Shown one piece after another: positions 15,825 to 41,978 of a DNA stretch of 52,159 nucleotides (the first letter of the stretch is position 1; each line of letters starts with the position of its first letter). The notes under the pieces were generated by a model. It had not been told where the DNA came from, ran no database searches, and saw only the letters and a program-made list of their open reading frames with translations. Position numbers and translations under genes: made by a program. The stretch comes from Candidatus Parcubacteria bacterium (GTDB taxonomy: Bacteria > Patescibacteriota > Minisyncoccia > Phycocordibacterales > UBA2100): assembly GCA_003599175.1 (NCBI GenBank), contig QZIY01000020.1:1-52159 (forward strand), in the 5' to 3' direction.

Positions 15825-16578
15825 CACGTACGCACTGAGTGGGAAACATATTCTTATTACGGGTGCCAACGGCCAACTTGGCAGTGGCCTCGCTGCTCGT
15901 TTTACACAAGAAGGCGCCATCGTGCATGTGTCCGATATACAGGAGATAATCACGCCAGATCTTGCAAAGGCACTCACTGCTCTCGGTGCCTCCTTCACCT
16001 ATCACAAGCTCGACATCTCCAAGGAATCCGATATCAAAAAAGTTGTCGACGAACTCCCGGCACTGAACGTACTCGTCAACAATGCGGGCATTGCCGTGTT
16101 CACACCTTTTGAAGAACGCACGCCGGAGGAACTTGATGCGGTGATGGATGTAAATATAAAAGGCACCATTCTTACGGCCAAAATATGTGCGGCGAAGATG
16201 ACGGGAAAAGACGGGAAAATTATCAATATCGGATCAATCTATGGCGTCGTGCCGGGTGACAAGCGCATCTATGGCGACTCGGGCCGCAACACCTCAGAAA
16301 TTTACGCTGCGACGAAGGCGGGTGTGATTCATCTCACCAAATACCTGGCTGCCTATCTTGCCGACAAGGGTATTACCGTCAATGCGGTTTCGCCGGGCGG
16401 CATTTTCAGTAATCAAAAAGATTTTTTTGTCGCCGAATACACCAACAAAACACCCCTCAAGCGGATGGCATCGGTCGACGATATCGCAAACGCCGTACTC
16501 TTTCTCGCCTCGAGTGATGCCGGCTATATCACCGGTCAAAACCTTGTTGTCGACGGCGGCTTTTCACTCAATCAATAG
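15817..16578 (+). CDS. short-chain dehydrogenase/reductase
   Basis: ILITGANGQLGSGLAARF; NVLVNNAGIAV; EIYAATKAGVIHLTKYLA; NAVSPGGI. Confidence 0.9.
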   Translation: MANTYALSGKHILITGANGQLGSGLAARFTQEGAIVHVSDIQEIITPDLAKALTALGASFTYHKLDISKESDIKKVVDELPALNVLVNNAGIAVFTPFEERTPEELDAVMDVNIKGTILTAKICAAKMTGKDGKIINIGSIYGVVPGDKRIYGDSGRNTSEIYAATKAGVIHLTKYLAAYLADKGITVNAVSPGGIFSNQKDFFVAEYTNKTPLKRMASVDDIANAVLFLASSDAGYITGQNLVVDGGFSLNQ

Positions 16579-16579
16579 T

Positions 16580-17407
16580 ATGTCGCTCGCAACACTCGGG
16601 ATCGGAAAAGGAAAAACATTTATCATCGCCGAAGTCGGTATCAATCACAATGGAGATTTCAAAAAAGCGGTCAAGCTGATCGACGAAGCGAAAAAAGCAG
16701 GCGCGGACGCGGTGAAGTTTCAGACCTATGTCACCGAAAAACGTGTTCCAAAAGATAGTCCAATCTACGGCATTTTGAAGCAATGCGAACTCTCGCAGGA
16801 GGATCAACGAAGGCTCAAAATACATGCGGATAAAAAAGGAATCCTCTTCTTCTCGACTCCCTTTGATGAAGAGAGCGTCACCTTTCTCAAAGATCTCAAT
16901 GTGCCGCTTCTCAAGATTGCGTCCTTTGATATCGTAAATCACAAGCTTCTTCGCGCGTGCGCGAAAACTAAGATCCCGATGATTATCTCGCGCGGCATGG
17001 CCTCACAATCGGAAATCGCTACTGCTGCCTCAATCTGCAAAAAGGTGGGCACCGAATTCGCGCTCTTGCACTGCGTTTCTGCCTATCCGGCACCCAAAAC
17101 ATCGGTGAATCTTCGCGCGATCGACGCTCTCAAAGCACAATACAAAGTCCCCGTCGGCTTTTCTGATCACACACTCGACATTGATGCATGCGTCTATGCG
17201 GTTGCCCGCGGCGCAGAGGTTTTGGAAAAGCACTTCACGCTTAATCGCAGAATGAAAGGGCCTGACCACCGGCTCTCGGCAGATCCGAAGATGCTCGCGC
17301 AGTTGGTGCAGCGTGTCCGAGAAGTAGAGGGGATGTTGGGCCGAGGTAAACTCGTGTCACTCCCTGTGGAGGCCGGTACTCGACAATATCGCCGCAAGAG
17401 TGTATGA
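16580..17407 (+). CDS. NeuB/SpsE-like nonulosonate synthase, no SAF domain
   Basis: FIIAEVGINHNGDFKKAVKLIDEAKKAGADAVKFQTY; LLHCVSAYPAP; GFSDHTLD; EKHFTL. Confidence 0.87.
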   Translation: MSLATLGIGKGKTFIIAEVGINHNGDFKKAVKLIDEAKKAGADAVKFQTYVTEKRVPKDSPIYGILKQCELSQEDQRRLKIHADKKGILFFSTPFDEESVTFLKDLNVPLLKIASFDIVNHKLLRACAKTKIPMIISRGMASQSEIATAASICKKVGTEFALLHCVSAYPAPKTSVNLRAIDALKAQYKVPVGFSDHTLDIDACVYAVARGAEVLEKHFTLNRRMKGPDHRLSADPKMLAQLVQRVREVEGMLGRGKLVSLPVEAGTRQYRRKSV

Positions 17408-19678: not shown

Positions 19679-21019
19679 ATGAAAAAGGGGGAGATCAAGC
19701 TGACCAAGAATGGTACCGGCCAAAAGCTTTGGCGCAAGGCAAAAAAACTCATTCCCGGCGGCAACCAACTCCTTTCAAAGCGTATTGAGCGCTTCCTGCC
19801 GGAATACTGGCCTGCGTATCATGGCAGGGGAAAAGGGGCAGAGGTGTCGGATCTCGATGGCAACCGGTATCTCGACATGTGCATTATGGGCATCGGGACG
19901 CTCACGCTTGGCTACGCCGACCCTGATGTCGATCGCGCGGTGATCCAAACGATCAAAGGAGGATCTATGGGCACGTTGAATTCCCCGCAGGAGATTGAGC
20001 TTGCGGAGCTCCTGATAAAGCTTCATCCATGGGCACAGATGGTGCGTTATGCGCGAAGCGGAGGAGAATCCATGGCAATCGCGGCACGTATCGCGCGTGC
20101 ATATAGCGGCAAAGAAAAAATCGCATTCTGCGGCTACCACGGCTGGGCCGATTGGTACCTCGCAGCAAATCTTTCGAAGAAGGATGGGCTCGACGAGCAC
20201 CTGATGCGGGGTCTTGAGCCAAAAGGTGTGCCGCATGGACTGAAGGGCACTATTTTACCCTTTCGTTACAATCATTTTGAAGAACTAGAAAAGATTCTCA
20301 AAGAAAACGAGGGTGAGATCGCTGCGGTCATCATGGAGCCGGTGCACGGCGAAGAACCAACCGACGATTTCCTGAAAAAAATCCGCAACGTCACCAAGGA
20401 GCTCAGTATCCCCTTAGTGTTCGATGAAATCACGATGGGTTTTCGCCTCACCATGGGTGGCGCGCACCTCTTGTATGGCATCGAGCCGGACATGGCGATC
20501 TTTGCCAAAGGAATGAGCAATGGTTATCCAATGGCGGCGATCCTTGGTCGCGAGGAGATTATGCAGGCAGCGCAAGACACGTTTATCTCGAGCACGTACT
20601 GGACGGAAGCCATTGGCCCTACGGCGGCGCTTGCCACGATCAAGAAAATGAAAGACAAAAAAGTCCACAAGCACCTGCGGACTATCGGTGTTCTGGTGCG
20701 AGATGCGTGGCAGAGCGCATCGAAAAAACACGGCATCGAGATCGGCTTCAGTGGCCCTTTGTCGTTGCAGTTCTTCGCGTTTAAGGGGAAGGACGCAGGG
20801 GCATTGAAAACGCTCTTCGTGCAGGAGATGTTGCGCCGCGGTTTTCTTGCGTCGGATCTTTTTTATGCTTCGTACGCACACACCCCCGCGCACGTGAAAA
20901 AATACGCGGCAGCGATCGATGAAGTATTCGGTATCCTCAAGGAAGCACTCAATACTAACACCGTTGAAAAACGGCTCCTCGGCCCGATCGCCCGCGCTGG
21001 ATTCGAACGGCTCAATTAA
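19679..21019 (+). CDS. class III aminotransferase, glutamate-1-semialdehyde aminomutase-like
   Basis: DLDGNRYLDMCIMGIGTLTLGY; CGYHGWADWY; VFDEITMGFRL; FAKGMSNGYPMAAILG (PLP Lys). Confidence 0.87.
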   Translation: MKKGEIKLTKNGTGQKLWRKAKKLIPGGNQLLSKRIERFLPEYWPAYHGRGKGAEVSDLDGNRYLDMCIMGIGTLTLGYADPDVDRAVIQTIKGGSMGTLNSPQEIELAELLIKLHPWAQMVRYARSGGESMAIAARIARAYSGKEKIAFCGYHGWADWYLAANLSKKDGLDEHLMRGLEPKGVPHGLKGTILPFRYNHFEELEKILKENEGEIAAVIMEPVHGEEPTDDFLKKIRNVTKELSIPLVFDEITMGFRLTMGGAHLLYGIEPDMAIFAKGMSNGYPMAAILGREEIMQAAQDTFISSTYWTEAIGPTAALATIKKMKDKKVHKHLRTIGVLVRDAWQSASKKHGIEIGFSGPLSLQFFAFKGKDAGALKTLFVQEMLRRGFLASDLFYASYAHTPAHVKKYAAAIDEVFGILKEALNTNTVEKRLLGPIARAGFERLN

Positions 21020-21020
21020 C

Positions 21021-21368
21021 ATGGCAGGGGTGGGCATTGATATTGTTGAAGTTGCGCGGTTTCGCTCTCTTTGCACAAAAAAGGGTCGGACGAGCCAATT
21101 CGTTCATCGCGTGTTTAGCGATGAAGAACAATCATACTGCTTTGCGTTCAAAGACCCGGCACCGCATCTTGCCGGTATGTTTGCAGCGAAAGAAGCAATA
21201 CAAAAAGCGCTCGATCAATTCACTACCCCGCTCACGCAAGTAGAAGTGAGGCACAAAAAAAGTGGAAAACCAGAAATCTGGCTTCGCGGCAAACGGGCGA
21301 AGCATATTTTGATTTCCATATCGCACACTAAAAGTACCGCCTGTGCAGCTGCGTTTGCGACACGATAG
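21021..21368 (+). CDS. acpS: holo-[acyl-carrier-protein] synthase
   Basis: MAGVGIDIVEVARF; HLAGMFAAKEAIQKAL; SISHTKSTACAAAF. Confidence 0.9.
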   Translation: MAGVGIDIVEVARFRSLCTKKGRTSQFVHRVFSDEEQSYCFAFKDPAPHLAGMFAAKEAIQKALDQFTTPLTQVEVRHKKSGKPEIWLRGKRAKHILISISHTKSTACAAAFATR

Positions 21369-22481: not shown

Positions 22482-22708
22482 AGCTCTATGCCTTTTTTAC
22501 GGAGCGCTCCCATGACATCGCCCAGGGACTGCATCGAAAGTACCTCCTGCATGTCGAAGACAACGCCATATTCTTTTTCAAGGTCTGCGATAAAGAGCAA
22601 GTAATTCATGGAATCCCACTCCGGTACATCCTTTGGCGTTAACTCTGGTCGGATGTCAGCCGCCGGAATCTTGAGTTGTTCGGTTACTATTATTTCGAAT
22701 GATTTCAT
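22478..22708 (-). CDS. acyl carrier protein
   Basis: VPEWDSMNYLLFIADLEKEYGV: phosphopantetheine Ser in DSM motif; start M at 22708 or 22723. Confidence 0.87.
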   Translation of the reverse strand: MKSFEIIVTEQLKIPAADIRPELTPKDVPEWDSMNYLLFIADLEKEYGVVFDMQEVLSMQSLGDVMGALRKKGIEL

Positions 22709-23739
22709 ACGAGTGTGACCCATGATGGCATGACAGCGGCATCGACCGCTACCGTATTCCCCGTAAAATTCTTTTCGATAAATATTTTAGCCGGCATATT
22801 TTTTTCGGTTGGCGTGAAGATGATGTCGAGGGTTTCGGCTCCTTCCGCGCGAGCACTTTCTGCGATCGCGGCAAGAAACGCTTCTTCGACGCCTCGGCCA
22901 ATGACACGGCAGGAAAGGAGCAGTGATTCAATGTGCCAAACCGGCGCGAGCTTTTGCACGAGCGCAAATGCGGTAATGCCGTAATCGCCGAATTTGTCGG
23001 TGACACGTGCACACAAGACAGCGTAATGCGGGTCACGAATAAACGCATCGATCTCCTCGACGGTGAGTGGTTTTTTGTTGGTATTGAACTGATTTGTTTT
23101 TTCGGTGAGTTGCGAAAGTCGCGCCACTTGGGCGGACGCATCTTTCAGAATTTCAACACGAAATCCAAGGCTTTTGAGAAATGCATCTCGATCAGTGAAT
23201 TGTTTTTCCGCCTCGCGGCGCAATCGTTCCGTCACGTACATATTGCCGCGCATTTTGTCTTCGTCGGTGATGACGTTGGCTTCGAAATAGGGGAGTGTAT
23301 GCAAAAACTGTGCATATTCTCTCGGATCCACCGGCAACTCCGGCGTCTCTACCTCAGGTACGAATTGTCGCATCGCGGCGCGGTTTTCTGGATTGTCGTC
23401 GAGGAAAACCATCGAGTCGAGACCAATGTTGAGTTCTTGGGCGATTGAGCGAATGTTTTCGGTCTTATCTGACCAATTGATGCGCATGGCTGCGAAATGG
23501 TTGCGTTTCAAAATCATGTTGGGATTAGCATCGATCACTTCCAAAGCGTCGCTTTCGTTGTTCGCACTCGCGATCGCCAGAATGATGCCGCGGTGATTGA
23601 GGTCGAGGAGTGCCTGCTGAAATGCGACGAAGTACGCCCCCGGTGGTGTGAGGCCAAGTGCTATGCCACGGGGACCATCTTCTCCAACAACCCCGCCCCA
23701 GAGCGTGTTGTCGAGATCAAGGACGATGCATTTTTTCAT
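22705..23739 (-). CDS. FkbH-like HAD-IIIC protein (acyl/glyceryl-ACP-forming family)
   Basis: CIVLDLDNTLWGGVVGEDG; FLDDNPENRAAMR; LTEKTNQFN; C-terminal GNAT-like part. Confidence 0.92.
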   Translation of the reverse strand: MKKCIVLDLDNTLWGGVVGEDGPRGIALGLTPPGAYFVAFQQALLDLNHRGIILAIASANNESDALEVIDANPNMILKRNHFAAMRINWSDKTENIRSIAQELNIGLDSMVFLDDNPENRAAMRQFVPEVETPELPVDPREYAQFLHTLPYFEANVITDEDKMRGNMYVTERLRREAEKQFTDRDAFLKSLGFRVEILKDASAQVARLSQLTEKTNQFNTNKKPLTVEEIDAFIRDPHYAVLCARVTDKFGDYGITAFALVQKLAPVWHIESLLLSCRVIGRGVEEAFLAAIAESARAEGAETLDIIFTPTEKNMPAKIFIEKNFTGNTVAVDAAVMPSWVTLV

Positions 23740-26530: not shown

Positions 26531-26857
26531 ATGGATCTTGCGATGTCACTCGGTTGGCTTGCCACGTTTCTTTTTACAATCTGCTATGTGCCGCAGATTA
26601 TCAAGACTGTGAAAACACAGTCGGTGAGCGGTCTTAGTTTTTGGCTTCTTTTTATACAATTCATCGCCAACATAGTCGCATTTTGTTATGCAACGCTCAT
26701 CGCGCAGCCCCCGCTTCAAATCAAGTATATACTCGCGCTCTTTTTTCTTCTGATATGTATGGGCGTATATATTCGTGTGTATCGAAAAAATCCACCGCAG
26801 CGACAAATCTCATCGGCAGAATCGCTTCCCGATGCACCCGATCAAGTGGCCCTCTAA
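26531..26857 (+). CDS. PQ-loop repeat (SemiSWEET-like) membrane protein
   Basis: LATFLFTICYVPQIIKTVKTQSVSGLSFWLLFIQFIANI. Confidence 0.8.
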   Translation: MDLAMSLGWLATFLFTICYVPQIIKTVKTQSVSGLSFWLLFIQFIANIVAFCYATLIAQPPLQIKYILALFFLLICMGVYIRVYRKNPPQRQISSAESLPDAPDQVAL

Positions 26858-27375
26858 ATCAGTTTCTTCGCTCGCATTTCAGTCCAGAGCTTTTCGATAC
26901 TTTTATGCACGCTTGTTTCAGCCGAAATTCTGATATCTGGTCGCTCCGGTCGCTCGTACGGGCGATTGTCGCTCATACCGATGATCTCCATCTCACCCCT
27001 TTTCCCTTTTGCGTACAATCCCTTCACGTCGCGCTCGATACAAATGGAAAGCGGTGTATCTACAAAAACTTCAATATATTGATCACCTAAAAGAGCTCTC
27101 GAGTTTGCGCGATCTTCCGCATAAGGTGAAATCGCTGAAACAAGCACGAAATCATTGTCCGCGCTTTGTTTGAGTGCAAGTTCTGCGAGAAGGCGATTAT
27201 TCTTGCGTATATCGTCGCGCGAGAATCCGAGCGGTGTTGCATGTTTTTCACGGACATCATCGCCGTCGACGAGGCTAACGATTTTACGCGACGCTTCCAG
27301 TCGCGTTTTGAGCGCGCGGGCGAGCGTGGTTTTACCTGAACCAGACAGACCAGTGAACCACAAGATCCGACTCAT
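26854..27375 (-). CDS. cysC: adenylylsulfate (APS) kinase
   Basis: LWFTGLSGSGKTTLARAL; VDGDDVRE; GFSRDDIRKNNRL; EVFVDTPLSICIERDVKGLYAKG. Confidence 0.92.
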   Translation of the reverse strand: MSRILWFTGLSGSGKTTLARALKTRLEASRKIVSLVDGDDVREKHATPLGFSRDDIRKNNRLLAELALKQSADNDFVLVSAISPYAEDRANSRALLGDQYIEVFVDTPLSICIERDVKGLYAKGKRGEMEIIGMSDNRPYERPERPDIRISAETSVHKSIEKLWTEMRAKKLI

Positions 27376-27379
27376 AGTT

Positions 27380-29638
27380 TTATTCGACAAATACTTTTTT
27401 GCCGCGCTTGATCATGTCGATGATTGCTGAGGAAATTTCCGGACGCATAAACCATGCAGGTGGTTTTTTACCTGCAAGAAGCATCGCACGTACTTGTGTG
27501 CCACTGATGTTCAGTTTTTCGCTTTCTTTGTGTCTTAATCGCTGTTCGCCTTCGTGAATATGTTTTTTTTCCTTGGACGAATAAAATACTTGATTGAAAC
27601 GCACTGGAGATATATTGAGGTCGGGAAAACGATCGAAAATTTCGTGCGCTGCTGCCGGAGGATAGAACGACCCGATACCTGTATGATCTCGTCCGACGAT
27701 AAAATGACTGCAGCCGAAATTTTGACGGCACAGAGCAGTAAAAAGTGCTTCGCGCGGACCAGCGTAGCGTGAATAACTCGCGAAGGTCCCGAGTATAGCG
27801 CGTCCTTTGGGGTAGAATTGTTCACTCATGAGTGCATACGCAGCGATGATGGCCTCGGCCTCAAAATCACCTTTTTTCTTTTTGCCAATAACAGGATGAA
27901 TAAAAAGTCCATCTGCCGAAGAACGGCGAAGCGCTTCGAGCTGAATAAATTCGTGCCCACGATGAATTGCGTTCCTCGTGTGAAATGCAACGATCCGTGA
28001 CCATCCTCGTTCTGCAAATAAGCGTCGTGTCTGCCGCGGCGTGAGCTCGTATTTTTTGGTCGGCGAATCATATCGTCTGTAGAGTGTCACCGTGCCGCCT
28101 AAAAAGACAGGCCTCATCGCCAGTACCATGGCGACACCCGGGTGTGAGGGGTCAGTTGTCCCGTACACATGCTGCGCGAAATCTTTTTTATCGTACGCAT
28201 ATTTTTCTTTCAGATGGAGCACGGCTACAACGGTTCCTTTCTTGTTTTTGAGCGCGATATCAGATCCTTCTGTAAGACGCGCCGCTTCTTCGGTACTGAC
28301 ATCAAGTACAATCGGCATCGGCCATATGGCACCGCTTGGCATCCGCATATGCTTGAGCACAGAATCCAATTCTTTGTGCGTAAGAAAACCTTCGAGCGGA
28401 CTGAAGGTGCCGATGGCGATTTGCTCAATATCCATATGCTGTTCATCGGTAATCTGTATCGATTGCAATTTCCCATCGGGGGTGAGACCAAATGCAGCTT
28501 GCCGATCCACAAGCGTGCCACCATTAGGGGGAATGAGCATCTCGCCCGGATTACTGGTATGCAGATAGTTTGCCTTGTCGAGTGTGACGACGTATCGAGG
28601 ACGTGGTCGCGCATCTTCTGGCACGCTCTCTGCTTGATGAATCAATTTATTCAGCGTGTTAACCACCTCAATCGGATAGTCGCCGATCGCTGTTTCCGCT
28701 GCAAGTGTAACGCCGAAGGCGCCATCGAGGATCGTCTGCACCGTGTCATGTACCTCGGCGCGCGTAGGACTTTGTTTATGTACCATTGACTCAAGAAAAT
28801 TCGTCGCGACGAAGACTCCCTTGTTTTTTTTGCGCGCTCGGTCGATGATGATTTTTTGCGCAAAGGGGATTTTCTCGATCGGTACCTCGCGGCTCAAATC
28901 GCCGCGGTCGATCAGAAGGTAGTCAGATTTTTCTATGATCGCATCGAGTTGCTCGAGTGCTTCTGTGCACTCGATCTTCGAAATGATTTTCATGCGGCTC
29001 TTTGTCCGCTTTCGCACGAGATCCACTGCTTCTGGCGATCGCACGAACGAAACAGCAATGTGATCGACGCCTTCTTTGAGCGCTATTGCGATCGCATCTT
29101 CGTCTTTTGGTGAGAGTGTCGGAAGTTCAAAATTTTTTTTGGATGCCGTGTCGATGACAACACCTTTGTTGGCTCCCATGATGCCACCGGATAGTACCGT
29201 TGATACCACATACCCCTTCTGTGCGAGCATCGAAGTCTCGGTCACGCGCAGGACTACAGAATTGAAATCGATATATACGAGATCACCTTCAGCCAACTGT
29301 GGTACGATGGATTCAGGTTTGAGACAGATGCGTGTACTGTTGCCCCGAATCTGCTTTTGATAAATTTTGATCCTCGCGCCTTCCTCTAAGCGGATCTCGC
29401 CTCGTTCGTTTGCCCCGTTGCGCACCTGCGACCCTTCAGTATCCAATATGAAAGGTATGCCTACGTCGCGCGCAAGTTTCATAAAATAACCCTGATCTGC
29501 AATGCTTGAGTGCGACATATTGACACGCACGAAACCGACGCCCCGGTCTTTGAGCGCACGTAGATGATCTTTGGTATGAGTCGATGGCCCCAGCGTCACC
29601 ACGATCTTGGTTTTCTTGGGAGTCGGTCTGATTTTCAT
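27380..29638 (-). CDS. in-frame fusion: pyruvate kinase-like N-terminal domain plus ATP sulfurylase
   Basis: PK (about aa 1-340): VRVNMSHS, IISKIE, DRGDLSREVPIEKIPFAQK, ATNFLESM, SPTRAEVHDTVQTILDG, AAETAIGDYPIEVV. ATPS (about aa 345-752): LIPPNGGTLVDR, AIGTFSPLEGFLTHKE, FHTRNAIHRGHE, VGRDHTGIGSFY. Confidence 0.92.
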   Translation of the reverse strand: MKIRPTPKKTKIVVTLGPSTHTKDHLRALKDRGVGFVRVNMSHSSIADQGYFMKLARDVGIPFILDTEGSQVRNGANERGEIRLEEGARIKIYQKQIRGNSTRICLKPESIVPQLAEGDLVYIDFNSVVLRVTETSMLAQKGYVVSTVLSGGIMGANKGVVIDTASKKNFELPTLSPKDEDAIAIALKEGVDHIAVSFVRSPEAVDLVRKRTKSRMKIISKIECTEALEQLDAIIEKSDYLLIDRGDLSREVPIEKIPFAQKIIIDRARKKNKGVFVATNFLESMVHKQSPTRAEVHDTVQTILDGAFGVTLAAETAIGDYPIEVVNTLNKLIHQAESVPEDARPRPRYVVTLDKANYLHTSNPGEMLIPPNGGTLVDRQAAFGLTPDGKLQSIQITDEQHMDIEQIAIGTFSPLEGFLTHKELDSVLKHMRMPSGAIWPMPIVLDVSTEEAARLTEGSDIALKNKKGTVVAVLHLKEKYAYDKKDFAQHVYGTTDPSHPGVAMVLAMRPVFLGGTVTLYRRYDSPTKKYELTPRQTRRLFAERGWSRIVAFHTRNAIHRGHEFIQLEALRRSSADGLFIHPVIGKKKKGDFEAEAIIAAYALMSEQFYPKGRAILGTFASYSRYAGPREALFTALCRQNFGCSHFIVGRDHTGIGSFYPPAAAHEIFDRFPDLNISPVRFNQVFYSSKEKKHIHEGEQRLRHKESEKLNISGTQVRAMLLAGKKPPAWFMRPEISSAIIDMIKRGKKVFVE

Positions 29639-29730
29639 ACGAGATGCATGAAGGGGAGGTTTTTGTCCCGGACATCGAGGAATATACTATTATTGGAGAC
29701 ACGCGTCTACGGTATGATACAGTCCCGTGT

Positions 29731-30585
29731 ATGCGCCGCCTCATTTTTTTTCACCTTGCGAAAACGGGAGGAATCACCCTGCGACGTATCGCTGAGCGCC
29801 ACCTTCCCGAGGGTTACGCGTTCTACAATCTCTCGCTCAATCAAGCCGACAGCAAGGAGCTTGAGGAATTTCGAGCGCTACCCGAAACTAAAAAAGAGAA
29901 GATTGCCGTCCTTGCAGGCCACATGCCTTTTGGCATGGATAAAGAGTTGAGCGGGCCGTCAGATTACATCACGATGCTCCGAAACCCGCTCGACATCGTC
30001 GTATCGGAGTATTATTACCTGCACAACAGTCCGCTTAAAGATTGGCACCGCGCGATCGCGGATTTCAAGGCGATGAGTCTCGGTGATTTCGCACGGAGCG
30101 GATTCAATATAACGACGAACCATCAGACGCGCGTTCTTGCCAGAATATGGTCCACTTTTTTGGAACGATCCGTTCCCGTCGATGAAGCGGCATTTTCACG
30201 GGCGAAAGAATCCCTTCGGCGTGACTTTCTCTGCGTTGGCATCACGGAGCGTTTCGACGAGTCGCTCTTGGTCATGAAAAGGCGGCTCGGGTGGCGTAGT
30301 ATTTATTATTTTAGAGAAAACAAAACGCCGGGACGCAGGCCAACTAAAAGTATCGCACCGGGAGATCGTGATGCTATTCTTGAGCGCAATCATATTGACC
30401 TTGCACTATGGAAGTTTGCGAATGAGCTTTTGGATAAGGAAATCGAAGATTATGGGCCAAATTTTATGCGTGATTTGCGCCATTTTCAGCGGCGTAATTT
30501 TTGGTACCAGAAAGCGCGTCGTGTCGCCCTCTTGGCACGTGGTTTGATGTTCCGCCTTAAGAAACTTACGCACCTGCATGCTTGA
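29731..30585 (+). CDS. sulfotransferase family protein
   Basis: LIFFHLAKTGGITLRRI (5'-PSB-like loop) and MLRNPLDIVVSEYYYL (3'-PB-like). Confidence 0.83.
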   Translation: MRRLIFFHLAKTGGITLRRIAERHLPEGYAFYNLSLNQADSKELEEFRALPETKKEKIAVLAGHMPFGMDKELSGPSDYITMLRNPLDIVVSEYYYLHNSPLKDWHRAIADFKAMSLGDFARSGFNITTNHQTRVLARIWSTFLERSVPVDEAAFSRAKESLRRDFLCVGITERFDESLLVMKRRLGWRSIYYFRENKTPGRRPTKSIAPGDRDAILERNHIDLALWKFANELLDKEIEDYGPNFMRDLRHFQRRNFWYQKARRVALLARGLMFRLKKLTHLHA

Positions 30586-35017: not shown

Positions 35018-35719
35018 ATGAACATCATTGCGCTCATCCTCGCCCGCGGCGGCAGCAAGCGGTTTCCGGGGAAAAATCTATACCCGCTGCTCGGAAAGCC
35101 CCTGATTGCACATTCTATCATCGCTGCGAAAGCGACGACGAAGATCGATCGGGTGATCGTCTCGACCGACAGCGAGGAAATTGCCGCGGTGGCGCGGGAA
35201 TATACCGCGGAAGTCCCATTCATGCGCCCCTCGGAACTTGCGAGCGATTCCGCAAAGGCGATTGACGTCGTGCGTCACATCATCGGGATGCTCGAACAAG
35301 ACGGTTATAAGGCCGGTTACGTTGTCACATTACAGCCAACAACACCCGTAATCGAACCGGCGCAGATCGATGCGGCGATCGAGCTTGCGATCGAGAAAAA
35401 TGCAGAGTCTGTCGTGAACGTATCGGAAATAGATACCATCAATCACCCGTACAACATCCGCGAAATTCGAGAGGATGGCACCGCGCATTTCTGGCAAGAA
35501 AAATTGCATTACGAGGCGCTCGGCAAAGATAGACCGAAGTTTTATCACGCTGCCAATCTGTGGCTATCGAGTTACGACACGGTGATGAAAGAGGGGAAAT
35601 TTGAAGGAGAAAAAAATTATCCCATCATCGTGCCGCCGATTTATTCGAGCGATATCGATTTTAAGGAAGATCTGGAACGACTTGAAGCCATCCTTTCCAG
35701 CTGGAAGAAAAACGGCTAG
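35018..35719 (+). CDS. neuA: CMP-sialate/legionaminate cytidylyltransferase
   Basis: IALILARGGSKRFPGKNLYPLLGKPLIAHSI; VIVSTDSEEIAAVA; VVTLQPTTPV. Confidence 0.88.
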   Translation: MNIIALILARGGSKRFPGKNLYPLLGKPLIAHSIIAAKATTKIDRVIVSTDSEEIAAVAREYTAEVPFMRPSELASDSAKAIDVVRHIIGMLEQDGYKAGYVVTLQPTTPVIEPAQIDAAIELAIEKNAESVVNVSEIDTINHPYNIREIREDGTAHFWQEKLHYEALGKDRPKFYHAANLWLSSYDTVMKEGKFEGEKNYPIIVPPIYSSDIDFKEDLERLEAILSSWKKNG

Positions 35720-35729
35720 TATCCAGACA

Positions 35730-36878
35730 ATGGCAGATAAGCGGACGATTGCGGTACTCACGGGGAAGCGCGGCGGATTCGGCGCGATGATTACGATGGT
35801 CGAAGCGCTGAAACGTGATCCAAAAATCAGCGTTGAGCCGATTACTACCGACATGCACCTGAACCCTTTTTTTGGTGATACGGTCAAGGAAGTTGAGAGA
35901 TCATATGGCCCGACCCATCGCGTACCGACCGATCAAAAAGACGACACGAGTGAAGAGCGAGCACAGACACTTGCGCGCACCATGGCGGGCATGGTCGATA
36001 TACTCTCGAAAATTAAACCTGATGTTTTGGTGACGTTGGGGGATCGCGGCGAAGTTTTGGCGGCAGCAAACGCCGCGCTCGAACTCAATATTCCAGTCGC
36101 CCACATCCTTGGAGGCGATACTGCAGGAAACCGAGATGGCGTACGTATCCATGCCATCACCAAACTTGCGCATTTGCATTTTCCAGCCAACAAAGACGCA
36201 TACAAACGCATCTTGAAATTAGGCGAAGAGAAATGGCGCGTCTTCGACTTTGGCTCTACCTATATCGATCTTGCGGTGCAGAAAAAGTTTACGCCGAATA
36301 CAGAAGTGCGGCGGAAGTACAACATCAAACCAGATGAGCCGTACCTTCTCTGCATTCAGCATCCGACGACGCTCGACGAAACCCGCTCATATGACGAAGC
36401 AAAGACGGTATACGAGGGGCTGAAGCGCACGGGTATGCGTACGATCATTGTCTGGCCATGCAGTGATCAAGGGTATTCACTCGTCCTCAAGGCACTCGAT
36501 GAGTATAAAAATGTGCCGCAATTCAGTATTCACAAAAATATCGAAGTACAGGATTTTTGGGGACTCATGGATGGTGCCTCTGCGATGGTAGGGAATTCTT
36601 CGAGCGGTCTCATGGAAACACCATACTTCAATCTGCCGTCCGTAACGGTCGGACACCGGCAAGACGGTCGAGCGCGAGACACCAATGGTATTGTGGTAGC
36701 TGAGCCGACGCCTGAAAAGGTCGAGAAGGCCGTTCTGAGAGCGATCTCACCCGCATTTAAGAAAAAGGTAAAAAATCATTTCGTCTTTGGCAAAGGAAAT
36801 GCGGGAGAGAAGATTGCTCATGTTCTCAAAACTATTCCACTGGGTGAAAAATTACTTCGCAAAAAAATAACGTTCTAA
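35730..36878 (+). CDS. neuC: UDP-GlcNAc 2-epimerase (hydrolysing type)
   Basis: PDVLVTLGDRGEVLAAANAALELNIPVAHILGGDTAGNRD; CIQHPTTLDE; MVGNSSSGLMETPYFNLPSVTVGHRQDGR. Confidence 0.87.
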   Translation: MADKRTIAVLTGKRGGFGAMITMVEALKRDPKISVEPITTDMHLNPFFGDTVKEVERSYGPTHRVPTDQKDDTSEERAQTLARTMAGMVDILSKIKPDVLVTLGDRGEVLAAANAALELNIPVAHILGGDTAGNRDGVRIHAITKLAHLHFPANKDAYKRILKLGEEKWRVFDFGSTYIDLAVQKKFTPNTEVRRKYNIKPDEPYLLCIQHPTTLDETRSYDEAKTVYEGLKRTGMRTIIVWPCSDQGYSLVLKALDEYKNVPQFSIHKNIEVQDFWGLMDGASAMVGNSSSGLMETPYFNLPSVTVGHRQDGRARDTNGIVVAEPTPEKVEKAVLRAISPAFKKKVKNHFVFGKGNAGEKIAHVLKTIPLGEKLLRKKITF

Positions 36879-39038: not shown

Positions 39039-39719
39039 ATGACCCCTGACGAAAAAGCAGACATCTCACGTGCACTCATCAAACTCACGCTCGAACGATA
39101 CCCGCGCGTATTCCTCGCATGCTCTTTCGGCAAAGACTCTCGCGTCTTGGTGGATCTTGCGACCTCGGTGAAGCCCGATGTCGAGATTTGCGGCATCGAT
39201 ACAGGATACGAATTCAAAGAGACGCTGGAATTTGCCAATGAACTCATCGAAAAGCGCAACCTCAATTTCAAATGGCTTCGCCCCACGCCCGAAGATGTGA
39301 AGCGTATCGATGAATACTATGGCGACAGCTTCATCAAAGACGATCAGTACAAATGCTGCGAGATGAAAATTCCAGCGATCAATAATGTCATCGGCGGATA
39401 CGATGCGTGGATCACAGGTCTCCGACGCGATGAGACGGAATTCCGCAAAAACACGGGCCTTATTGAGCAGGGCAAGATCGTGAAGGTGAATCCCATTGCA
39501 TTTTGGAATCACGATGATATCTGGACCTACATCAAAGACCACAAGCTTGAATATCACCCACTCTACGACAAAGGTTATCCGTCACTCGGCTGCGAGCCGT
39601 GCACAAAGGAGGGGAAGAACCAGAGTGGGGGCGGGCGACAGGGTAAATTCGAGCGCGCGGGCCGCTTCACTGGTACCGGCAATCAGGGACAAGAGTGCGG
39701 TTTGCATACCATGGTCTAA
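39039..39719 (+). CDS. cysH: phospho-/adenylylsulfate reductase (CysH family, APS-reductase-type cysteines)
   Basis: FLACSFGKDSRVLVDLA; YKCCEMKIPA; WITGLRRDE; KVNPIAFWNHDDIWTYI; YPSLGCEPCT; ECGLH. Confidence 0.9.
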   Translation: MTPDEKADISRALIKLTLERYPRVFLACSFGKDSRVLVDLATSVKPDVEICGIDTGYEFKETLEFANELIEKRNLNFKWLRPTPEDVKRIDEYYGDSFIKDDQYKCCEMKIPAINNVIGGYDAWITGLRRDETEFRKNTGLIEQGKIVKVNPIAFWNHDDIWTYIKDHKLEYHPLYDKGYPSLGCEPCTKEGKNQSGGGRQGKFERAGRFTGTGNQGQECGLHTMV

Positions 39720-39737: not shown

Positions 39738-40919
39738 ATGGCAATAAAAAGTAAGAAGCTCCGTGTGCTCGTTTTGGGCGGTGATGGCTATCTGGGCTGG
39801 CCGACGGCGATGTATTTTTCCAATCGAGGTCACGAGGTCGCGGTTGTCGACAATTTCAATAAGCGAAAGTGGGAAGCGGAAGTTGATGCGGAGCCATTGA
39901 TGCCCATCCCATCACTTCAGGAGCGCATCCGTATCTGGAAGAAAACAACCGGCAAGAAAATCAAAATGTATGTCGGCGATCTCTGTCATGAGCGTTTTGT
40001 CGCGCGCGTGTTCGATGAGTTCAAGCCCGACACGATCATTCACTTTGGTGAGCAACCCTCAGCACCTTTCTCAATGATCGGCAACGAACGAGCAGTGGAG
40101 ACGCAGGTCAACAATGTTGTCGGCAATTTGAATGTAATCTTTGCGATGAAGCGCTCGACACCGAATGCACATCTTGTGAAGCTCGGCACGATGGGCGAAT
40201 ATGGCACGCCGAATATTGATATCGAAGAAGGATGGCTCGACATTACTCACAAGGGGCGCAGAGATCGTCTTCTCTTTCCCAAAAAGCCGGGGTCCTTCTA
40301 TCATCTCTCGAAAGTCCATGACAGCCACAATCTCGAATTTGCATGCCGCACGTGGGATCTTGCGGTGACCGATCTCAATCAGGGTGTCGTATATGGCATT
40401 GAGACGGAAGAGACAAAGATGGCGCCTGGTCTTCACACCTCATTCCACTACGATGATATTTTCGGTACCGCACTCAACCGCTTTTGTGTACAGGCGGTCG
40501 CTGGCTTGCCGATCACGCCGTATGGCAAAGGTGGACAGAAACGCGGGTTTCTCAACATCGTCGATACGCTCCGCTGCGTCGAGCTCGCAGCGCTCCACCC
40601 GGCGAAAAAGGGCGAGTTTCGCGTCTTCAACCAATTCACTGAAGTTTTTAGCGTCAACGAACTTGCAGAAACGGTGAAAGAGGCGGCGAAGAAAATGAAC
40701 ATCAAGGCGACAGTCAAGCACATCAAAAACCCGCGCAAGGAGCAGGAAGAGCACTACTACAAGCCGGTGCACACCGGCTTGCCTAAGCTCGGTCTCAAAC
40801 CGCACCTCCTCTCCGACGTCTTGGTCGAGAGCATGATCGCCAAAATCATTGAGCACAAAGATCACATTGAGGAAGAAATCATCATGCCGCGCGTGGTGTG
40901 GGAGAAAAAGAAGAACTAA
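39738..40919 (+). CDS. sqdB: UDP-sulfoquinovose synthase (SQD1/SqdB)
   Basis: VLGGDGYLGWPTAMY; HFGEQPSAPFSMI; KLGTMGEYGTPNIDIEEG; SFYHLSKVHDSHNLEF; TDLNQGVVYG; FGTALNRFCVQA; GEFRVFNQFTEVFSVNELA; EEHYY. Confidence 0.95.
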   Translation: MAIKSKKLRVLVLGGDGYLGWPTAMYFSNRGHEVAVVDNFNKRKWEAEVDAEPLMPIPSLQERIRIWKKTTGKKIKMYVGDLCHERFVARVFDEFKPDTIIHFGEQPSAPFSMIGNERAVETQVNNVVGNLNVIFAMKRSTPNAHLVKLGTMGEYGTPNIDIEEGWLDITHKGRRDRLLFPKKPGSFYHLSKVHDSHNLEFACRTWDLAVTDLNQGVVYGIETEETKMAPGLHTSFHYDDIFGTALNRFCVQAVAGLPITPYGKGGQKRGFLNIVDTLRCVELAALHPAKKGEFRVFNQFTEVFSVNELAETVKEAAKKMNIKATVKHIKNPRKEQEEHYYKPVHTGLPKLGLKPHLLSDVLVESMIAKIIEHKDHIEEEIIMPRVVWEKKKN

Positions 40920-40955: not shown

Positions 40956-41978
40956 ATGAGCAAAAAGGTCTCCTTAAACGGTAGGATGGTGGGCGAAGGC
41001 GAGCCCGTGTACATCATCGCTGAAGGTGGGCTTACGAATTGGGGGCAGCTCGATTTGGCAAAAAAGCAGGCGGATGCCGCTTTGGTGGCGAAATGCGACT
41101 CGGTGAAATATCAGGCACAGACGACCGAAGCACTGGTCTCGAAAGTTGCCTCGCCGTATTGGTACGATCGGCTCAAATATAAAGAGCTACCGCATGATCA
41201 ATTGCGCGAGCTGATGGAGTATTGTAAGGAAATCGGCATCCAAGGATTTATCACGGCGCATACGGAAGTCGATCTCGAATTTCTTGACAAAGATTTAAAT
41301 ATTCCATTTCACAAAATCGGGTCAGGCGAATCACTCAACTTCGAATTTTTGGAAAAAGTTGGTGCGTGCAAAAAACCGGTCATCATGTCGCTCGGACTTC
41401 ATGTATCGATCGACGAAGTCAAAGAATCTGTTGCAGCGCTCGAGCGGGGAGGTACGCGCGACATTGTGCTCATGCATTGCAACACTATCTACCCGACTCC
41501 GTGGGAGATCATGGATCTTTCAATCATTCAAAAATTGAAAGAGACTTTTGATTATCCGATTGGCTATTCGGATCACACACCGGGCTGGCACATTCCTCTC
41601 GCTGCCGTTGCGCTCGGTGCCACTGTGATCGAGAAGCATCTTTCGTTTGACCTCACCGACGAACGCTCATTTGACTCTGCGGTTTCGTGCACACCAGAAA
41701 CCTTGATTACGATGGTGGAACAATTGAGGCAAGTAGATGCGGCAAGATTTGATCGCAAGGGCGAGCGGCCAAACGCTATTTTGAAAGGGCGTGAATGGGC
41801 GCGGCAATCGATCGTGGCGACGACGAACATCGCAAAGGGAACTGAGATCACTCGCGAGATGCTTACGGTAAAGCGACCAGGAACAGGACTCCCGCCGGAA
41901 AAGGTTGCAGACATCGTCGGCAAAACGGCGACGCGAAATATCGGTGAAGACGAATTGATTCTGGAATCTGACTTTTAA
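40956..41978 (+). CDS. neuB: NeuB-family nonulosonate synthase with SAF domain
   Basis: YIIAEGGLTNWGQLDLAKKQADAA; HKIGSGE; LMHCNTIYPTP; IGYSDHTPG; EKHLSFD; SAF-like IVATTNIAKGTEITREMLTVKRPGTGL. Confidence 0.9.
   Translation: MSKKVSLNGRMVGEGEPVYIIAEGGLTNWGQLDLAKKQADAALVAKCDSVKYQAQTTEALVSKVASPYWYDRLKYKELPHDQLRELMEYCKEIGIQGFITAHTEVDLEFLDKDLNIPFHKIGSGESLNFEFLEKVGACKKPVIMSLGLHVSIDEVKESVAALERGGTRDIVLMHCNTIYPTPWEIMDLSIIQKLKETFDYPIGYSDHTPGWHIPLAAVALGATVIEKHLSFDLTDERSFDSAVSCTPETLITMVEQLRQVDAARFDRKGERPNAILKGREWARQSIVATTNIAKGTEITREMLTVKRPGTGLPPEKVADIVGKTATRNIGEDELILESDF

Follow-up and report, generated by a model that had tools for sequence, protein, structure and literature searches.

Sulfate activation is an uphill process, and the pulls known for it are APS kinase/pyrophosphatase and the CysN GTPase. 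A stretch of 52,159 nucleotides from a Candidatus Parcubacteria bacterium (contig QZIY01000020.1, assembly GCA_003599175.1), referred to here as the window, codes for a protein in which pyruvate kinase (PK) is joined to ATP sulfurylase (ATPS). What would a PEP-consuming kinase contribute to a sulfate-activating enzyme? An initial sequence-only reading suggested that the fusion could regenerate ATP locally and pull the unfavourable sulfurylase reaction. Our present results lead us to propose that PK-ATPS is probably a PAPS-synthesis enzyme, in which PEP drives regeneration of ATP from the ADP of APS kinase and which feeds glycan sulfation. In the window, PAPS probably also feeds sulfoquinovose synthesis, as indicated by CysH and SQD1 genes.

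Architecture of the fusion protein

The minus-strand ORF running from 29638 to 27380 is uninterrupted in the ORF analysis of the window and codes for 752 amino acids. Its assignment as a PK-ATPS fusion (27380..29638, minus strand) is based on Pfam and NCBIfam profiles, PDB matches, an AlphaFold model and homologues. Residues 1-345 (28604..29638, minus strand) form the A and B domains of PK, as delimited by conservation and by the Pfam PK barrel (residues 8-326, E 1e-68; PF00224 scores 232 bits against a cut-off of 30). The ATPS part, with PUA_2 and catalytic domains, takes up residues ~372-752 (27380..28525, minus strand), where Pfam places PUA_2 at residues 388-521 (E 1e-45) and ATP-sulfurylase at residues 529-740 (E 2e-77). 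Both NCBIfam ATPS models score above their cut-offs (TIGR00339, 347.9 versus 322.95; NF003166, 429 versus 387). Pfam gives no PK_C match in the fusion, ATPS beginning after residue ~370; because of this lack of the PK C-domain, the NCBIfam PK model TIGR01064 stays, as expected, under its full-length cut-off (285.9 versus 306.4). The C-domain is dispensable for PK catalysis. ORF and Pfam domains together confirm the initial description of a single 752-residue chain composed of a PK without C-domain and a complete ATPS, and the motifs named in it (K221 in IISKIE, D247 in DRGDL, ATNFLESM, RNAIHRGHE and GRDHTG) are all present.

The closest solved structure of the ATPS half is Methanothermococcus ATPS (8a8d; phmmer 1e-97, ~42% identity; Foldseek TM 0.93 on target), while the PK half is closest to bacterial PKs. 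AlphaFold models the whole chain with confidence (pLDDT 90.9, pTM 0.89), including the arrangement of the two domains. A chance ORF is ruled out by the three Pfam domains and this model. An assembly chimera is ruled out as well: PK and ATPS share one ORF at 43 loci, the window included, and full-length homologues with 40-59% identity come from many independent assemblies, among them complete Sinorhizobium/Ensifer replicons. Scans for sigma-70 promoters and terminators gave chance level only.

Distribution and origin of the family

The 43 loci, found by a genome scan with the PK part followed by ORF analysis, answer the question whether the domain combination exists elsewhere; the count takes in the window, two rhizobial plasmids and one CPR genome (L113) from the phylum sample. 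CPR hosts belong to Kaiser-, Falkow-, Yanofsky-, Giovannoni-, Magasanik- and Sungibacteria, archaeal hosts to Woesearchaeota plus one other archaeon, and further hosts to Chloroflexi, Omnitrophota, Marinimicrobia, Alpha- and 'Delta'proteobacteria, Planctomycetota and KSB1, so that the family spans about ten phyla. Its occurrence is sporadic: only 2 of 384 sampled genomes of the window's phylum carry the fusion, the window's own included. In every fused locus found, PK is N-terminal to ATPS. Ten proteins (nine loci and L113) are triple fusions with APS kinase as a third domain; the AlphaFold model of one of them (L070) has pLDDT 87.3 and pTM 0.74. In a 1069-residue KSB1 protein (L072:4106-7315), a sulfotransferase precedes PK and ATPS in a single chain. 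The same KSB1 genome (G483) has a second PK match (C51), in an ORF of PK-ATPS length.

Some matches are partial. A Nitriliruptorales contig stops inside the PK part of its match, and the Phaeobacter match (H10) is fragmentary, with three pieces that cover ATPS only. Magnetovibrio encodes a stand-alone 337-residue PK of the fused clade near aroA and cmk (L068:10007-11020), which may be a split-off or an ancestral form. Phage or plasmid cargo was rejected as an explanation, as phage matches reach the PK part only and the relevant plasmid matches are rhizobial megaplasmids.

In the PK-domain tree, the 42 clade rows form a single clade (SH-aLRT 100) against 47 ordinary PKs, and in the ATPS-domain tree the 38 fused rows likewise form one (100/99) against 16 unfused ATPS, the controls in both being of narrow taxon range and the rows coming from a search that started from the fused PK. 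Both trees divide broadly into CPR/archaea/Chloroflexi/Marinimicrobia on one side and Proteobacteria/Planctomycetota/KSB1 on the other; the two halves have therefore travelled together. A single clade for each domain is most simply read as one origin of the fusion and disfavours repeated convergent fusions.

We found no description of a fusion of PK with ATPS or PAPS synthase in the open-access PMC literature, which agrees with the initial remark that no characterised example was known. Judged from its sequences, PK-ATPS is a real and conserved family, undescribed as far as this literature shows, whose function we infer.

Active sites of the two halves

The catalytic and metal-binding residues of PK (R38, N40, S42, D66, R73, K221, E223, R245, G246, D247, T279) are invariant, as are H43 and K158 on the nucleotide side; conservation was scored over 42-44 rows, with threonine at the fourth K+ ligand in 41. 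A degenerate PK is thus ruled out, and because these residues are invariant PK activity of the fusion is likely. The clade also has a strict signature of its own: E68 (K/Q in ordinary PKs), Q71 (E/K), D244 directly before RGD (A in all ordinary PKs compared), S249 (G) and N280 (Q). By motif alignment, E68 and Q71 correspond to rabbit PK positions 114 and 117, which gives the fused PK the set T113/E114/Q117, in contrast to T/K/E in K+-dependent and L/Q/K in K+-independent PKs. A published survey reports Glu or Lys as the only residues at position 117 in bacteria and eukaryotes, with others in Crenarchaeota (PMC4374775). Given that survey, the Q117-type fused PK looks like a third bacterial type, and its signature changes might reflect a shift in cation use or in specificity.

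In the ATPS half, RN and both histidines of QXRN...HXXH and also GRDH are retained, but the full combination of QXRN...HXXH with GRDHA does not occur in the fused clade. Three changes are clade-specific, Q to H (38/38), H to T (38/38) and GRDHA to GRDHT/S (37/38), whereas all 16 unfused ATPS keep Q and A at these positions. The window protein carries them as H553, T634 and T653. The sulfate bound by Sat is held between Q199 and A299 (PMC3779200). As this Q and A are replaced, the fused ATPS is, on alignment, a divergent Sat subfamily; its substrate is presumably still sulfate, though the replacement of Q by H and of A by T/S in the pocket could point to an altered acceptor. Both halves appear strongly constrained yet retuned, since core residues are retained while the clade-specific changes are invariant.

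Retuning of this kind might also be expected if the PK domain were a sensor or scaffold that binds PEP, ADP or ATP and gates the sulfurylase by energy state without turnover. There is precedent in fungal ATPS, where an inactive APS-kinase-like domain gates the enzyme by PAPS, and the clade-specific changes around the PK active site and the confident two-domain AlphaFold arrangement fit as well. Regulatory pseudo-enzymes, however, usually lose some catalytic residues, and here at least 42 rows retain all of them without change, K221, R38, R73 and the metal-binding E223 and D247 included; we regard a sensor as unlikely, and an active PK within a PAPS-making enzyme as the better account.

Gene neighbourhood

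The gene following the fusion in the window codes for a cysC-like APS kinase (26854..27375, minus strand; PF01583, 1.3e-43), which shares 50% identity with the APS kinase domain of a triple fusion (L034). Its ATG lies 4 nt past the TAA stop of the fusion, so that of the initial statement that the fusion overlaps or abuts cysC the abutting holds; an overlap exists only in the longer form given by the ORF caller, with a TTG start at 27390. On the opposite side, a divergent sulfotransferase of the Gal-3-O-sulfotransferase family is encoded at 29644..30585 (plus strand; PF06990, 1.6e-10, above cut-off), probably starting at an internal ATG at 29731. Further away on the plus strand lie genes for a CysH-type phosphoadenylyl-sulfate reductase (39039..39719; PRK02090, 190 bits versus a cut-off of 154; PDB PAPS reductases, 2.7e-33) and an SQD1-like UDP-sulfoquinovose synthase (39738..40919; phmmer 9.4e-151 to SQD1, 1i24), the latter scoring 480.7 bits with NF041015, under the strict cut-off of 575. 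This pair in a CPR glycan locus suggests sulfoquinovose-bearing glycans or lipids, with CysH as a possible second PAPS consumer giving sulfite.

The fusion belongs to a long glycan locus that also encodes NeuC- and NeuB-like enzymes, a cytidylyltransferase, a deacetylase and glycosyl/glycerophosphotransferase-like proteins. Two NeuB-like synthases, the NeuC-like epimerase and the cytidylyltransferase lie at 16358-17407, 35018-36878 and 40956-41978, a set which by its gene content is one for nonulosonic (sialic-like) acid synthesis. The locus also holds an FkbH-domain protein (22705-23739, minus strand) and a holo-ACP-synthase-like protein (20919-21368, plus strand), both unusual among surface-sugar genes.

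Across the family, a sulfotransferase-like gene lies within five genes at 22 of 44 clade loci and at none of the 39 loci of ordinary PKs (Fisher p 3e-8), in a comparison where many clade loci are on short contigs, the loci are partly non-independent and the seeds for detection were the sulfotransferases of the fused loci. In a separate Pfam neighbour tally, sulfotransferases and APS kinase are the leading families at fused loci, and both are absent from the 25 families listed for control PK loci. Most loci have APS kinase next to PK-ATPS or joined to it; several have none nearby. Inositol_P/CysQ-like genes are also among the commonest neighbours, presumably for PAP recycling.

Proposed pathway

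ATPS would first convert ATP and sulfate to APS and PPi; APS kinase, supplied by the next gene or a third domain, would then phosphorylate APS with a second ATP to give PAPS and ADP, and the PK domain would re-phosphorylate this ADP using PEP. ADP would thereby be kept low and ATP high at the site, pulling the unfavourable ATPS step, with sulfate + ATP + PEP -> PAPS + PPi + pyruvate as the net reaction. PAPS would be used by sulfotransferases acting on surface glycans, in the window through O-sulfation by the sulfotransferase encoded at 29644, and, also in the window, by CysH, whose sulfite would pass into UDP-sulfoquinovose via SQD1.

This reading is based on the domains, their conservation, one clade per domain, gene context, and the triple and sulfotransferase fusions. 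APS kinase is the next gene in the window and is part of the chain in the 10 triple fusions. Domains and adjacent or fused APS kinase strongly support PK-ATPS as a real enzyme with a link to APS kinase, as first suggested, and the role in PAPS supply gains support from the triple fusions, the sulfotransferase fusion, and sulfotransferase and CysQ-like neighbours. From these data we infer PK catalysis and its local coupling to PAPS synthesis. With human PAPS synthase in vitro, PAPS was 'practically missing' without PK/PEP ATP regeneration and strongly increased with it (PMC9885120). The genome of the window encodes enolase, which would supply PEP; no soluble pyrophosphatase of the PF00719 family, which would remove PPi and so add to the pull, was found in this 88% complete genome. 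Against the PAPS-synthase reading we count the latter result, the clade-specific changes in the PK and ATPS pockets, the loci without nearby APS kinase, and the attachment of PK directly to ATPS when it is APS kinase that produces the ADP.

The initial idea of ATP regeneration pulling the sulfurylase needs one restriction: ATPS releases PPi and not ADP, and the pull must therefore pass through APS kinase, a route that the triple fusions fit. Direct chemical or conformational coupling, in which PEP-driven PK turnover would promote APS formation or release on ATPS in a CysN-like manner with APS kinase unneeded, would fit the invariant position of PK before ATPS, the loci without nearby APS kinase and the invariant clade-specific changes in both active sites. 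Yet ATPS releases no ADP, such coupling has no structural support, and most loci have APS kinase adjacent or fused; we consider it improbable compared with regeneration through APS kinase.

PK complement of the hosts

No PK besides the fusion was found in the window's genome (G000), nor more generally in 10 of the 11 CPR-type genomes and the two archaeal genomes tested, all incomplete assemblies. Larger free-living hosts mostly have a canonical PK besides the fusion, two lacking one in the available assembly; because of this second enzyme, the fused PK is not the glycolytic one in most of them. That it is chiefly the cell's glycolytic PK, with an ATPS link that is incidental or serves co-expression, accords with no other PK having been found in most of the CPR and archaeal hosts tested, but it is very improbable in view of the canonical PK of most free-living hosts, the location in glycan and sulfation loci and not with glycolysis, and an ATPS part conserved as well as the PK part in a fusion that persists across phyla. 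To the sequence-only reading our comparisons thus add an apparent single origin, a remodelled sulfate pocket, a glycan-sulfation context and the status of the fusion as the only PK found in most of these CPR and archaeal hosts.

Relation to known systems

Bifunctional PAPS synthases (animal PAPSS, Aquifex 2gks and the CPR Sat-CysC proteins L114-L116) resemble PK-ATPS in that ATPS and APS kinase are joined or adjacent and make PAPS, but lack a PK domain. All unfused ATPS examined have the ordinary Q, H and A in the sulfate pocket, unlike PK-ATPS; the archaeal-type single-domain ATPS 8a8d is also unfused and has the ordinary Q in the aligned motif. In CysDN/CysNC, an extra energy-supplying module serves sulfate activation, as proposed here, through GTP hydrolysis instead of phosphoryl transfer from PEP. 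CysD is an ATP-PPase-type enzyme whose fold is unrelated to Sat-type ATPS, and the fusion protein holds PK, PUA_2 and ATPS domains only, with neither CysN nor CysD. Engineered PAPS-regeneration cascades (PAPSS1 with PK/PEP; PMC9885120) employ the same ATP regeneration, with the enzymes supplied individually in vitro and not as one natural protein.

The family thus suggests a third pull on sulfate activation, on-board ATP regeneration from PEP, as chemists add to enzymatic sulfation. It points to sulfated surface glycans in CPR bacteria and woesearchaea, here perhaps sulfoquinovose-bearing, and may offer a single-chain catalyst for making PAPS. A broader proposal, which we hold tentatively and slightly on the side of doubt, is that PK-ATPS represents a new sulfate-activating class, in which PEP, acting through a fused and adapted PK in place of GTP, would power PAPS formation for glycan sulfation at a remodelled sulfate pocket, and which gene transfer would have carried between CPR, archaea and free-living bacteria.

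With pyruvate kinase (EC 2.7.1.40) the fused PK has in common the A and B domains and the full catalytic residue set, differing in the D that replaces the ordinary A before RGD. PKs without a C-domain (PRK06739 and the 340-354-residue CPR forms L128, L132, L133 and L135) share the A/B domains but fall into a separate clade. PK-like proteins of ~270-310 residues, matching mainly PK residues 173-338, occur in the genus and family of the window's genome (L013-L026); frequent in that CPR family, they appear to be PKs that lack the B domain or are shortened in some other way.
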